From Acerihabitans arboris (GTDB lineage Bacteria > Pseudomonadota > Gammaproteobacteria > Enterobacterales > Enterobacteriaceae), in assembly GCF_010131535.1 (NCBI RefSeq), contig NZ_WUBS01000001.1:186001-250000 (forward strand): a stretch of 64,000 bases of DNA, written 5' to 3'. Shown one piece after another: positions 54,263-60,099 of this stretch (positions are counted from its first letter, which is position 1; every line of letters starts with the position of its first letter). The position numbers and the translations under genes were made by a program. The notes below the pieces were generated by a model, which was given only the letters and a program-made list of their open reading frames with translations, made no database searches and was not told the origin of the DNA.

Positions 54263-56212
54263 TCAGTAGCGCCGTTGCCACTCGGCGTCCGTCAGCACTT
54301 TCGCCGGCTGGCGCAGGAAATAACGGTAAAATACGTCATAAGCCAGGACATTTTTCACATAACCGCGGGTTTCCGAGAACGGGATGCTTTCAATAAAGGC
54401 CACCGCGTCAATACGGCCAGCGCTATTGCCAAGCCAGGTGGTCACCCGACCCGGGCCGGCATTATAAGCCACGCTCGACAATATGCGGTTGCGGCCGAAC
54501 ATCTGGTAAACATATTCCAGATAGGTGGTGCCCAGCTCGATATTGGTCCGTGGATCCAGCAGCTGGCTGGTATTCATATAGCTGCTTATATTAAACATCT
54601 CGGCAGTATGTTTGGCGGTAGCGGGCATGAGCTGCATCAGGCCGGCCGCGCCGACCGGCGACTGCGCCTTGGGGTTCCAGGCGCTTTCCTGGCGGGCTAT
54701 CGCCATGGCGTAGCTCTGGCTTATTCCCTTATCATCGGTGGCGCGGCGGAATTCATTATGCCAGGCCAGGGGAAAACGCTCCTCCAGATGATCCCACAGC
54801 TTGCCGCTGATGGTCGCCTGCACGCTCAGATCGGGCCATTGCTGCTCAAAGGCGTAACGCGCCAACCCCTCCTGCTCCGGCCTGCTGAGGCTGGACACCA
54901 GCGAGCTCCATTCATTCCTGGCCAGGTTATCCATATTCCAGTACATCAGCTCGCGCACGCGGGCTATCTCCGGCCGCTTCGTCAGCGCGGGCGGCGGCGC
55001 GACCGCGCGCGCCACGTTGACCACATAATTGGCGCCCAGTTCCTGCGCCGCGACCATCGGATAAAAACCGCGGCCCTGCATGAGATCGCGCAGTATCTGC
55101 CCGCCTTCGCTTTTGCGGCCCTGGTTGATTAACACCGCCGCCTGCCAATAGCGCCACTCCTCTTTCTGGCGGGCGTCCTCAGGCAAACGATCCAGCCAGG
55201 CGGCAACCGCGCGCATATCCCCCTGCCCCAGCGACATGCGGATACGCCGTTCCAGCAACGAGGTGGAATGACCGCGTAAAATAACATTGTCGCGCCAGGC
55301 GGCCTGTTCCGGCGTGGCGTCGGTGCCCATCAGGCGCCAGGCGACGCTTTCCTCGAGATCGAGGCGGTCGCTGTCATCCATTTTCTGCAGCCGCACCAGG
55401 GTCGGCAGCATGGCGCGGGCATTTTCCACATCGTCACGGGCCAGGCGGGCAAAAGAGATAATGGTGGCCTGCCGGGTTAAATCCGTCGGCCCTACGCTGC
55501 GGGCAAATCCTTCAAGCGTCGCGGGATTATCCTGTAGCGCCGCCAGCGCGCTGCCCATGGTCTGATATTCAATCGGCAGTTGCTTGGACAGTACGTTCAC
55601 CAGATTGGTGTTGCCCTCCTTCATGGCCAGGCGCATGCGCTCGAGGATCGCCAGCGGTCCGCGCTGGCCGGCCTGATCCCAGACGCCGAATAATTTATTG
55701 CAGCTCTCCGGCAGCGAATGTCCGTTAAGCCATATCTCCTTGGCGCCGTCCCAGGCCGCCTGCTGCTGTCCGGTGGCCCATTTGGCGTAATAAAAATTAC
55801 AGCGCGCGGAGACCGGCTTCGGCGGCTGAGGACTGAACGCCAGCAGTCCCGGCCAGTCCTGGCGCTGGGCCAGCTCATTGACAAAGCGGGCCGACAGCGA
55901 GCGCGCCGGCGGCAGCGTCGGGTTGGCATCGGTGAAGGCTTTGATCTGCGCCGAGCTGGCCTGCGAAAGATCCTGCGATAACGCCCGGTATTCCAGATAA
56001 GGGTACAGCGGATAATCACGCAGGGTCGGCATCAGTTGCGACACCACGTCCATTTGGTTGCCGTCCCATGCCTGCTTAACCTGTTGATAGCGCTGGCGCT
56101 GTGCATCGATTGAATCAGCATGTGCCGGGCCGGTTACGGTTGCCAGGCCTATTACCGCGCCCACCAGGCCCGCGCCCGCGTAACGCCATCTGTCCACCTT
56201 GACCATATCCAC
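54263..56212 (-). CDS. slt: soluble lytic murein transglycosylase Slt70
   Basis: Periplasmic exo-lytic transglycosylase that cuts peptidoglycan to anhydromuropeptides. The product is 649 residues (E. coli 645), with a signal peptide (cut near AHA-DS, about residue 33). A long alpha-superhelical U-shaped domain follows, and the C-terminal lysozyme-like domain has catalytic E509 (ARQESAWNP) with GLMQLMPATA and AYNAGPGRV. It is divergent from the accessory membrane-protein gene, whereas in E. coli it is divergent from ettA. Confidence 0.96.
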   Translation of the reverse strand: MDMVKVDRWRYAGAGLVGAVIGLATVTGPAHADSIDAQRQRYQQVKQAWDGNQMDVVSQLMPTLRDYPLYPYLEYRALSQDLSQASSAQIKAFTDANPTLPPARSLSARFVNELAQRQDWPGLLAFSPQPPKPVSARCNFYYAKWATGQQQAAWDGAKEIWLNGHSLPESCNKLFGVWDQAGQRGPLAILERMRLAMKEGNTNLVNVLSKQLPIEYQTMGSALAALQDNPATLEGFARSVGPTDLTRQATIISFARLARDDVENARAMLPTLVRLQKMDDSDRLDLEESVAWRLMGTDATPEQAAWRDNVILRGHSTSLLERRIRMSLGQGDMRAVAAWLDRLPEDARQKEEWRYWQAAVLINQGRKSEGGQILRDLMQGRGFYPMVAAQELGANYVVNVARAVAPPPALTKRPEIARVRELMYWNMDNLARNEWSSLVSSLSRPEQEGLARYAFEQQWPDLSVQATISGKLWDHLEERFPLAWHNEFRRATDDKGISQSYAMAIARQESAWNPKAQSPVGAAGLMQLMPATAKHTAEMFNISSYMNTSQLLDPRTNIELGTTYLEYVYQMFGRNRILSSVAYNAGPGRVTTWLGNSAGRIDAVAFIESIPFSETRGYVKNVLAYDVFYRYFLRQPAKVLTDAEWQRRY

Positions 56213-56649
56213 TCTATCCTCAGCGTAATGTCTTTTTTGTTGCGCCCTTGATCGGGCTTATCCCAGCCGGTCGGTTCCGGTTGCTGTCACCATGCTAGCT
56301 AAGCGGCCCGGTCTATGCCAGCGGCAGTCGCGACAATCGTCATTATTTTCGCCGATATCTTTTTTTAAGGCGTTTTAGGCTCCTTAAACCGGGTGGCCAA
56401 ACCCGCCGGCAGCGCGCTGGATCACATTTATGATTTTTAGCGGTATAAGGCCCCAGTTGCCCCTATCCACCCGCATGGCGTTGGGTTACGCTGCTCTGCT
56501 AAGCACGCAACCTGTAACCGCGCATATCCCGTAGGCATGCAGCCGATGGGCATGCGACCCGTGTCCTTTGCCTGTCTGCCCCCGGCTTAACCGAATTGCA
56601 GTAAAACGGCCGATGTCTGATACCAGCCTTTGCTTTAGGGTGATGGAAA
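56213..56649. other. intergenic region between slt and the membrane-protein gene
   Basis: A 437-base gap with the divergent promoters of slt and the next gene. TTTAAGG (56364-56370) and CCTTAAA (56382-56388) form a 7-bp inverted repeat. I see no convincing promoter hexamers and no conserved small gene; a minus-strand frame at 56499-56705 has no family features. Confidence 0.4.
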
Positions 56650-58302
56650 GTGAAATTGAAAAATAACCTGTTACTTATCTTTTTGAGTTTCTTGGTTTTA
56701 TGCATACTTGTGGTGACGTTGCAGGAAATTGGCGTTTGGGAAGGACATGATTGGGTCGCTCATTTCCAGAGAATGATTTCTTTAAATAATGAATTGGCAA
56801 ATAATCAATTTCCACCCTTGTTTGATTATTGGTCGCCGGGGCAATTTGGCTATTCGTGGCAGCTGTTTTATCCACCGCTGACGTCGTTGTTGTTTTTAGC
56901 GGCTAAAGCGCTCACATTCAATACCGCCGATATTATCATCCAGATGAAAATGGTTTTTTTCCTCATTTTCGTCATCGCTTTTTTTTCGGCGTTTTACGCC
57001 GCCAAACGCCAGCATTCATCTTCCGCGGCGGGTTTTTTATGCGCGATATTACTGATCTCCTCCGGGTATTTCCTGACCAATATCTATATCCGGTTTGCCT
57101 TGGGCGAAAGCCTGGCAATGGCATTGATGCCGCTGTTTATCAGGGGCTGCGGCTCGCTTATCAGCGATCGCAAAGATATCTGGCTGCTGCCGTTTTCCGC
57201 ATTAGGCGTGTTTTTATCGAATATACCCAGCGTGGTGGTGATTTCCATTTTTTTTATATTGTTCGCCGCGGTCAACTTCAAATTAATTACCATAAAACCT
57301 AATCTGGCTTTTTTTAGCATTTCGTTACTGTTCATCTTATCCATCAGCGCGTTTTATTGGGCGCCGTTGCTTTATCATATCCGCTTTTCAGATATTTTCG
57401 CCACCAGCGGCAAGCTGCTTAAGTATGACGACCTGTTGAAATTCAGCAGTGGCCTGACGGAGACCCTGCTGTCGCTGCCCTCCACCTATGGCGTATCCAA
57501 TCCCGGCATGTTTTTGTCGGTCGGCGTCATTCAACTGCTGCTCGCCGTGGCTTACCTGAAATGGGGTAAATCCGCCGCGGCGAAGAAAATGATTATTATT
57601 TCACTATTATTTATTATTGCCACTACCCACCTGCTGCCCTGGAACAAAATCCCCGATAGCGTCCCGATACTAAAATTAATCCAGTTCCCATGGCGGCTGC
57701 TGTCTTGCGCCACCGCCATTATCGCCTTGCATGCCTCAGGTATGCTGGCGGCAATGCTGGCGCGAAAAAAAACGCTGGTCACGTTACTGGCCTGCCTGTG
57801 CATCGCCAGTATGTATCCCTCCTACCACAAGGCCATGAGCGTTCGTTATATGAATGTGGATACATCATCCCTCTACGATGATTACCTCAATAACAGCAAC
57901 GTGCGTCCCGTGAACTTTGACCATCTGAAAATCAACGATTTTGCCTTCTTTGCCAATCCCCAGGCGCCCATTATCGGCACCGCCTATATCAACGGCTATC
58001 CCGAAATGGTTATCCGCTCCGCGGGAACGCAAACCGTTACCCTGCCTTATATCATGTACGCGGGTTATTACCTGCTGGTGGATGGCAATCGGGTGGCGGC
58101 CAGCCGCGTGGACAGCGGGCTGGTCGGCGTGACGCTTGACGGCGGCGAGCATACCGTCAGGCTGGCGTACCAGCGGTATATTGTTATTATCCCGGCGTTA
58201 ATCAGCCTGTTGTCTCTATTGGTGACGGCGCTGTTTTTTACCCGCCGCCGCGATCGGATATCCGCCCTGTCGGCGCGCTATACCAACATCTCTCGGGGAT
58301 AG
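56650..58302 (+). CDS. polytopic membrane protein, PTPS-related/YfhO-like (GT-C type) family
   Basis: A 550-residue integral membrane protein with about 12 hydrophobic segments and a C-terminal periplasmic beta-rich domain (about 405-515) before a last membrane helix. The N-terminal loop WEGHDWVAHFQRMISLNNEL, then FPPLFDYWSPGQFGYSW, resembles the 6-pyruvoyl-tetrahydropterin synthase-related membrane family and other GT-C glycosyltransferase-like proteins, with an acidic/His-rich first loop. It starts with GTG, 9 bases after AGGG. The 5' part is more AT-rich than the neighbours, suggesting transfer. A role in lipid-linked sugar transfer to envelope glycans is possible; no function is established. 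Confidence 0.75.
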   Translation: MKLKNNLLLIFLSFLVLCILVVTLQEIGVWEGHDWVAHFQRMISLNNELANNQFPPLFDYWSPGQFGYSWQLFYPPLTSLLFLAAKALTFNTADIIIQMKMVFFLIFVIAFFSAFYAAKRQHSSSAAGFLCAILLISSGYFLTNIYIRFALGESLAMALMPLFIRGCGSLISDRKDIWLLPFSALGVFLSNIPSVVVISIFFILFAAVNFKLITIKPNLAFFSISLLFILSISAFYWAPLLYHIRFSDIFATSGKLLKYDDLLKFSSGLTETLLSLPSTYGVSNPGMFLSVGVIQLLLAVAYLKWGKSAAAKKMIIISLLFIIATTHLLPWNKIPDSVPILKLIQFPWRLLSCATAIIALHASGMLAAMLARKKTLVTLLACLCIASMYPSYHKAMSVRYMNVDTSSLYDDYLNNSNVRPVNFDHLKINDFAFFANPQAPIIGTAYINGYPEMVIRSAGTQTVTLPYIMYAGYYLLVDGNRVAASRVDSGLVGVTLDGGEHTVRLAYQRYIVIIPALISLLSLLVTALFFTRRRDRISALSARYTNISRG

Positions 58303-58434: not shown

Positions 58435-60099
58435 GTGGCTCAATACGTCTATACCATGCATCGCGTCGGCAAAATCGTGCCGCCGAAACGCCATATCCTG
58501 AAAGATATTTCACTCAGCTTCTTCCCCGGCGCCAAGATCGGCGTGCTGGGCCTCAACGGCGCCGGTAAATCCACTCTGCTGCGCATCATGGCCGGCATCG
58601 ATACGGAAATAGAAGGCGAGGCGCGGCCTCAGGCGGGTATCAAAATCGGTTACCTGTCGCAGGAGCCGCAGCTTGATCTGCAGCAAACCGTGCGCGAGGC
58701 CGTAGAGCAGGCGGTCGGCGAGGTGAAGCAGGCCCTGACCCGCCTGGACGCGGTTTATGCCGCTTATGCGGAACCGGATGCGGATTTCGATAAACTGGCG
58801 AAAGAACAGGGCGAGCTGGAGGCCATTATCCAGGCCCATGACGGGCATAACCTGGATAACCAGCTGGAGCGCGCCGCCGATGCGCTGCGCCTGCCGCCGT
58901 GGGACGCCAAGATAGCCACCCTGTCCGGCGGGGAACGCCGCCGCGTGGCCATTTGCCGCCTGCTGCTGGAAAAACCGGACATGCTGCTGCTCGATGAACC
59001 GACCAACCATCTGGATGCGGAATCGGTGGCCTGGCTGGAGCGTTTCCTGCTGGATTACGAAGGCACCGTGGTGGCCATCACCCATGACCGTTATTTTCTG
59101 GATAACGTCGCCGGCTGGATCCTGGAACTGGACCGTGGCGAAGGCATTCCCTGGGAAGGCAATTATTCGTCCTGGCTGGAGCAAAAAGACGCGCGTCTGG
59201 CGCAGGAGGCCTCTACGGAAACGGCACGGCGTAAATCCATTGAGAAAGAGCTGGAATGGGTGCGCCAGAATCCCAAGGGCCGGCAGTCCAAGGGCAAAGC
59301 CCGCCTGGCACGCTTTGAAGAGCTTAACAACGTGGAATACCAGAAGCGCAATGAAACCAGCGAGCTGTTTATTCCACCGGGACCGCGCCTGGGCGACAAG
59401 GTGCTGGAGGTGGAAAACCTCAGGAAATCCTATGGCGACCGGCTGCTGATAGACAACCTGTCCTTCTCGGTTCCCAAAGGGGCGATCGTCGGCATTATCG
59501 GCCCGAACGGCGCCGGTAAATCCACCCTGTTTCGCATTCTCTCGGGCAAGGAACAGCCCGACGGCGGCACGGTGACGCTGGGCGATACCGTACAACTGGC
59601 GTCGGTCGATCAGTTCCGCGACAGCATGGACAACGGTAAAACCGTTTGGGAAGAAGTGTCCGGCGGCCAGGATATTATGCGCATCGGCAACTTTGAAATG
59701 CCGAGCCGCGCCTATGTCGGCCGTTTTAACTTCAAGGGCGTCGACCAGGGTAAACGCGTCGGCGAACTGTCCGGCGGCGAGCGCGGCCGCCTGCATCTGG
59801 CCAAGCTGCTGCAGGTGGGCGGCAATATGCTGCTGCTCGATGAACCGACCAACGACCTGGACGTGGAAACCCTGCGCGCGCTGGAAAACGCCCTGCTGGA
59901 GTTCCCCGGCTGCGCCATGGTCATTTCCCATGACCGCTGGTTCCTCGACCGGATCGCCACCCACATCATCGATTACCAGGATGAGGGCAAGATCGAATTT
60001 TTCGAGGGGAACTTTACCGAATACGAAGAGTGGAAAAAACGCACGCTGGGCGCTGAAGCATTGCAGCCGCACCGGATTAAATATAAAAAAATGTCCTGA
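58435..60099 (+). CDS. ettA: energy-dependent translational throttle protein EttA
   Basis: ABC-F ATPase that binds the ribosomal E site and gates the first elongation steps according to ATP/ADP. The product is 554 residues (E. coli 555). It has two Walker A motifs (LGLNGAGKST, IGPNGAGKST), two LSGGE signatures, two Walker B motifs (LLLDEPTNHLD, LLLDEPTNDLD) and the P-site arm linker between the domains. The start is GTG at 58435 (product MAQYVYTM). The nearest Shine-Dalgarno (AGAGG) is about 12 bases away, rather far. Confidence 0.97.
   Translation: MAQYVYTMHRVGKIVPPKRHILKDISLSFFPGAKIGVLGLNGAGKSTLLRIMAGIDTEIEGEARPQAGIKIGYLSQEPQLDLQQTVREAVEQAVGEVKQALTRLDAVYAAYAEPDADFDKLAKEQGELEAIIQAHDGHNLDNQLERAADALRLPPWDAKIATLSGGERRRVAICRLLLEKPDMLLLDEPTNHLDAESVAWLERFLLDYEGTVVAITHDRYFLDNVAGWILELDRGEGIPWEGNYSSWLEQKDARLAQEASTETARRKSIEKELEWVRQNPKGRQSKGKARLARFEELNNVEYQKRNETSELFIPPGPRLGDKVLEVENLRKSYGDRLLIDNLSFSVPKGAIVGIIGPNGAGKSTLFRILSGKEQPDGGTVTLGDTVQLASVDQFRDSMDNGKTVWEEVSGGQDIMRIGNFEMPSRAYVGRFNFKGVDQGKRVGELSGGERGRLHLAKLLQVGGNMLLLDEPTNDLDVETLRALENALLEFPGCAMVISHDRWFLDRIATHIIDYQDEGKIEFFEGNFTEYEEWKKRTLGAEALQPHRIKYKKMS

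Follow-up and report, generated by a model that had tools for sequence, protein, structure and literature searches.

A chromosomal GT-C-like gene between slt and ettA probably encodes a stand-alone acceptor-side glycosyltransferase of the phage Gtr type

The gene located between slt and ettA of Acerihabitans arboris, designated here GTX, probably encodes the acceptor-side glycosyltransferase of a phage-type, three-component (seroconversion) Gtr system, which has been left alone on the chromosome. It was analysed within a stretch of 64,000 nucleotides (contig C1:186001-250000 of the 5.64-Mb genome G000), referred to below as the window. The features of this region are as follows:

54263-56212, minus strand: slt, neighbour of GTX
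56326..58275, no strand: accessory stretch, approximate extent, from comparison with genome G003
56650..58302, plus strand: GTX, predicted GT-C-fold membrane glycosyltransferase gene (550 aa, GTG start, TAG stop; based on the ORF, fold and conservation)
56743..56772, plus strand: first-loop motif of GTX, residues 32-41 (G-H-D34-W-V-A-H38-F-Q-R41), from homologue conservation
57937..58170, plus strand: predicted C-terminal beta-rich domain of GTX, residues ~430-507 (Pfam, model, VIA-align)
58435-60099, plus strand: ettA, neighbour of GTX

The original prediction had described a 550-residue polytopic protein with a GTG start codon, encoded between divergent slt and ettA genes, and the ORF (uninterrupted in the window), its start and its neighbours were all confirmed. 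GTX is separated from slt by 437 bp and from ettA by 132 bp. The sequence conserved in G003, which carries other cargo between slt and ettA (the slt|ettA site), stops near 56325 and restarts near 58276. Neither gtrA nor gtrB was found between slt and ettA of the window, and GTX is therefore not classed within an intact gtr operon; remnants of these genes, sought beside GTX in the window and in the relatives G001 and G004, gave short low-scoring matches only. A tRNA-borne integration site was also considered, and was dropped since the window contains no tRNA.

A structural model of GTX was generated with AlphaFold2 from nine natural sequences (mean pLDDT 73, pTM 0.80; the low-confidence stretches include residues 54-73, 247-265 and 405-439). 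Helices make up most of the model, and strands are concentrated at residues ~441-507. All eight matches obtained with Foldseek against PDB at E<=0.001 are GT-C enzymes. VIA-align comparisons with oligosaccharyltransferases and the lipid A aminoarabinose transferase ArnT gave Z scores of ~18-21 over ~330-360 residues (best oligosaccharyltransferase, Z ~21; ArnT 5f15, Z 20.8, rmsd 3.8 Å over 344 aligned residues), compared with Z ~6 for chains of other types among the matches. A search of BFVD yielded no match at E<=0.001. The modelled fold of GTX is thus that of a GT-C glycosyltransferase, the architecture proposed for it at the outset. The two sequence features on which that proposal drew, an HDW...H N-terminal loop and a C-terminal beta-rich domain, were also found (residues 32-38 of the sequence G-H-D-W-V-A-H, and the strands at ~441-507, respectively). 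D34, H38 and R41 are invariant in all 13 homologues aligned, and belong to a set of 32 invariant columns that includes R148, E153, Q345, W348 and R349. By analogy with GT-C enzymes in general, D34 is a candidate catalytic acid, which would face the periplasm from the first loop. In Pfam, the C-terminal beta domain shows similarity to the terminal part of YfhO, and it gave beta-domain matches of Z ~6.

The GTX of the window reached no cut-off in Pfam or in NCBIfam (the latter giving irrelevant matches only) and had no match in PHROGs, which holds no family for GTX or its homologues. YfhO (PF09586) scored 17.1 bits against a cut-off of 28.5, along the C-terminal 58 residues only, and membership of this family was rejected; membership of the GtrII family was likewise rejected, as PF14264 gave no match at E<=1. 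PTPS_related (PF10131) was absent from the matches of the window protein at E<=1, but was recorded in its orthologues in G004 (30.6 bits, cut-off 26.4) and G001 (26.1 bits, just under the cut-off), and at E<=0.01 in three of nine members of the GTX family. The kinship with PTPS-related proteins that had been suggested therefore holds at the level of the orthologues, one of which passes the cut-off of PF10131 and another that of PF09586, while the window protein passes neither. No match with an ArnT-type or an acyltransferase family of Pfam was detected in GTX. Nothing meaningful was retrieved from PDB sequences by phmmer or profile searches, a scan of genome contigs with the single GTX sequence found no relative, and plasmids gave one distant partial match; in phage records, the matches were limited to ~19-28% identity, in unannotated Enterococcus- and Listeria-labelled entries. 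We found no publication on GTX in the open-licence literature, an absence that does not prove that none exists.

The genetic context of the GTX homologues points to their function. Four distinct contigs of IMG/VR encode such a protein, in each case within a gtrA-gtrB cluster. The gene orders are (i) gtrA-gtrB-GTX (locus L134), (ii) gtrA (cut by the contig end)-gtrB-GTX with another ORF of 508 aa (L135), (iii) gtrA-gtrB-GtrII-GTX (L131) and (iv) gtrA-gtrB-GtrII-GTX-acyltransferase (L132). Tailspike genes adjoin three of these clusters, recognised by Pfam in L131 and by a similar N-terminus in L134 and L135. In Edaphovirga the order is thrS | gtrA gtrB GTX. Among seven further loci of the family, gtrA-gtrB precede GTX in four (G1035, G886, G940, the last with a further ORF in between, and G986) and not in three (G869, G963 and G1083); of these, the Rouxiella locus (G963) and G1035, whose match is that of L135, add no new event. 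At the slt|ettA site of G002, a 318-aa GtrB-like gene (PHROGs GtrB, E 1e-163) lies directly upstream of GTX, and in G005 a gtrB with a damaged 5′ end occupies the same position. We infer that the chromosomal GTX copy would be of phage origin.

In some phage clusters, two GT-C-like genes, GtrII and then GTX, stand in tandem behind one gtrA-gtrB pair (L131 1279-4366 and L132 1276-4548, with GtrII assigned by Pfam; L167 5292-8395, with GtrII assigned by eye). Chimaeribacter californicus and Rouxiella contain a gtrA-gtrB pair with no transferase directly behind it, GTX being located elsewhere, and in C. coloradensis the pair is followed by an unmatched ORF of 426 aa. The pairs lying apart from GTX in Chimaeribacter and Rouxiella are:

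L126 5520-8205: gtrA-gtrB pair
L128 5815-7100: gtrA-gtrB pair
L129 6639-7945: gtrA-gtrB pair

The GTX gene of Chimaeribacter itself adjoins an acyltransferase-3 gene, with putative fliA, fliC and fliD a few kb away (L104 5947-8837, also L171). GTX may have become separated from gtrA-gtrB on more than one occasion. The trees are poorly resolved, with strong support on 2 of 10 inner branches for GTX and 3 of 14 for GtrB, and allow no firm order of events.

Inspection of the whole genome G000 revealed a gtrB gene on another contig:

G000:C53:117744-118658: gtrB of the window genome, intact, between thrS and pfkB, 77% identical to gtrB of G002

The same thrS|pfkB site carries both gtrA and gtrB in G001 and G004; in G000, the gtrA next to gtrB is gone. 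The thrS stretches examined in G002 and G005 contain no gtr gene, and the search for GTX remnants beside the thrS-linked gtrB gave short low-scoring matches only. Within the genus, the five genomes that carry GTX each possess a single gtrB at least 76% identical to the query (the gtrB of G002 itself), located at slt|ettA in G002 and G005 and at thrS|pfkB in G000, G001 and G004; in the 15 genomes without GTX in the same search, the best identity was at most 51%. Throughout the order, gtrB of this subfamily (E<=1e-110) occurs in 10 of 11 genomes with GTX, as against 10 of 393 others, in a count that takes two 394-genome searches as one and the same draw, includes calls for the genus made partly with a different query, leaves G869 and G1083 aside, and scores GTX by a narrower profile (A1) that probably misses distant phage-type copies. 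With relatedness ignored, Fisher's test gave P = 7e-14 by genome, 3e-4 by genus and 2e-3 by genus without Edaphovirga, where all genomes of the window genus count as one, as do all those of Chimaeribacter. The sole searched genome with GTX but without this gtrB is Kosakonia sp. S29, whose GTX copy has an in-frame stop. At the level of gene content, the co-occurrence and complementary placement support a partnership, short of proof, and the thrS-linked GtrB is probably the partner of GTX. The only GtrA-family match in G000 lies on contig C14 in unrelated company (L082 7099-7533), alone between putative ferredoxin/acpS genes and a regulator; its product could be the flippase.

With the Gtr scheme, as outlined in passages of PMC11127046 and PMC7389260, as the analogy, we infer the donor lipid, sugar, acceptor and activity of GTX as follows: (i) GtrB would use a nucleotide sugar to glycosylate undecaprenyl phosphate in the cytoplasm, (ii) a GtrA-family protein would help to flip the undecaprenyl-phosphate-sugar, and (iii) GTX, an inner-membrane protein whose Asp34 loop would face the periplasm, would attach the sugar to the O-antigen, the most likely acceptor, or to another surface glycan. 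Genes of the O-antigen ligase/polymerase family are present in G000, and such a target is therefore plausible. A substitution of GtrB between operons has been considered before, for Salmonella family II operons with a broken gtrB (part of PMC3688519). According to excerpts of other reports, the gtrC of such an operon in prophage BTP1 was later found to be GtrAB-independent and acetyltransferase-like (PMC4413052), and in Salmonella serogroup C1 a pair of 10-TMS proteins encoded beside gtrAB affects motility, and perhaps the LPS core (PMC8259012). An outcome of the BTP1 type is less likely for GTX, because it has no acyltransferase match and its predicted fold is GT-C. In a broad sense, GTX belongs to the acceptor-side transferases of Gtr systems, as a member not listed before.

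The distribution of GTX is that of an accessory gene, as had been proposed. A single-sequence search of 99 relatives detected it in seven (G000, G001, G002, G004, G005, G053 and, as a marginal partial match, G095), and a 13-row profile in 16 of 392 genomes of the family, representing 9 of 154 genera (E<=1e-20); the weak matches of G104, G261 and G346 (N-terminal, another family), G505 (C-terminal) and G095 were left out. Five of the six genomes of the genus carry GTX at slt|ettA, the copy of G005 being split by a frame change, and it was missing from all eight loci of other genera where slt and ettA were both identified (L039-L046; L047 and L048, in whose stretches slt was not found, are outside this count). 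Presence at this site across the family, which would have counted against the original proposal, is thus not what was observed. An alignment scan of genome contigs revealed nine GTX loci: two copies in MAGs and one in Sodalis sp. dw_96, corresponding to G001, G004 and G002, three in Chimaeribacter (46-47% identity), and one each in Kosakonia sp. S29 (39%), Rouxiella aceris (38%) and Edaphovirga cremea (30%).

The G+C content of GTX, 0.489, is the lowest among 42 non-overlapping ORFs of at least 200 aa called mechanically within the window (median 0.597), and its GC3 is 0.628 compared with a median of 0.731. The first half of the gene has a G+C content of 0.44 and the second half 0.54, which, with the accessory distribution, bears out the AT-rich 5′ half and the acquisition that had been postulated. 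In the GTX family as a whole, the values are 0.31-0.36 for the copies on phage contigs and 0.43-0.64 for the chromosomal ones, as expected if an AT-rich mobile gene were shifting towards the composition of its host.

It is unlikely that GTX is a passenger on its way out, i.e. an unlinked, functionless remnant of an old gtr cluster, although several observations lean that way: no gtrA or gtrB is linked to it in the window, the thrS-linked gtrA has been lost in G000, and GTX is broken in both G005 and Kosakonia (L107 5923-7590), and can therefore be lost. The gene also evolves faster than slt (slt dN 0.06-0.12). On the other hand, four of the five genomes of the genus having GTX carry it intact at slt|ettA, all 32 residues invariant across the family are kept, and G000, G001, G002 and G004 have each retained one intact gtrB of the subfamily. 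The pn/ps ratios among the four intact copies of the genus (0.26-0.40, with saturated synonymous sites) and the dN/dS ratios among the three Chimaeribacter copies (0.12-0.14), together with the slower evolution of slt, lead us to regard GTX as constrained yet fast-evolving; judged by these substitution patterns, it is under purifying selection.

Somewhat less probable still is that GTX is a GT-C enzyme fed by another lipid-linked sugar pathway (an ArnC-like or other Gtr-like synthase), or a modifier of the lipid A core like ArnT, its co-occurrence with GtrB reflecting shared phage history. ArnT is among the folds closest to GTX, a second GT2 gene of the GtrB kind (~31% identical) is present in an arn-like cluster of G000, and the GtrII protein encoded by each of G001 and G004 could be the client of GtrB. 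This reading is opposed by the repeated clustering of GTX with GtrB of one subfamily, and by a search of the whole of G000 for GtrII (PF14264), which gave no match and thus revealed no competing client of this type for GtrB. A coupling of GTX to the lytic transglycosylase Slt, e.g. in peptidoglycan decoration, for which the adjacency to slt in one genus alone would speak, is highly improbable and was rejected, since the two genes are transcribed divergently, homologues occupy other sites in other genera, and unrelated cargo fills slt|ettA in G003, G008 and G017.

The slt site is incidental for GTX, because the gene lies elsewhere in other genomes (at unrelated positions in Chimaeribacter, Rouxiella and Kosakonia) and the site receives other cargo. 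The original prediction of a new envelope function tied to the neighbouring murein hydrolase gene was thus not borne out as far as this tie is concerned; to call the function new was also too strong, since the best reading of GTX is a function class already known, extracytoplasmic glycosylation of the Gtr type, by a gene now separated from its operon. The slt|ettA site itself seems to be open to variable insertions. That of G003 holds genes for a LysR regulator and a quinone oxidoreductase, and pieces of a DNA methylase and a recombinase-like gene (L038 5977-11018; the methylase alone was checked with Pfam). Inspection by eye suggested a putative small toxin-antitoxin pair in G017 (L040 8078-9361) and a possible methyltransferase in G008 (L041 6149-7774).

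Returning to GTX as a Gtr-type transferase, a wider proposal can be made, tentatively and at rather less than even odds. In Sodalis-like bacteria, a phage seroconversion system may have been dismantled and retained as a permanent component of the envelope, with the acceptor enzyme fixed at slt|ettA and a single gtrB at one of two sites, never both, the parts being held by host selection rather than by an operon; the GTX family would then represent a Gtr(type) transferase not listed so far, which would form a sugar linkage of its own. With the present analysis, a protein below every Pfam and NCBIfam cut-off can be assigned to a function class and given a probable partner, with a residue open to testing, and its family recurs in phage seroconversion clusters despite having no PHROGs match. 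GTX and gtrB would represent a natural case of three-component glycosylation with unlinked donor and acceptor genes in a Gram-negative host, in which the interchangeability of GtrB is directly testable.

Of the known systems, the Gtr systems of Shigella and Salmonella phages (GtrA, GtrB and GtrC/Gtr(type)) are comparable in that the polytopic GTX family takes the place of the variable transferase in gtrA-gtrB clusters of phages and prophages, mostly beside tailspike genes, and that GtrB matches the O-antigen conversion family of PHROGs. GTX differs in having neither a PHROGs family nor a match with GtrII, and the window copy is outside an operon, with gtrB on another contig. The CsbB-GtcA-YfhO system, which glycosylates lipoteichoic acid in Gram-positives, shares the three-part logic and the C-terminal beta domain, although GTX aligns to YfhO by its C-terminal part only and below the cut-off; teichoic acids are not expected in the host of the window. 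Judging from PMC8035078, which gives widely separated locus tags for CsbB, GtcA and YfhO in S. aureus, the components of this system can also be unlinked, a precedent for GTX and gtrB. PTPS_related, described in the relevant part of PMC7801869 as a Pfam family with no assigned function, includes the G004 orthologue, nearly includes that of G001, and does not list the GTX of the window. ArnT shares the predicted GT-C fold, and is set apart by 8% identity in the structural alignment, the lack of a Pfam match and different gene partners.
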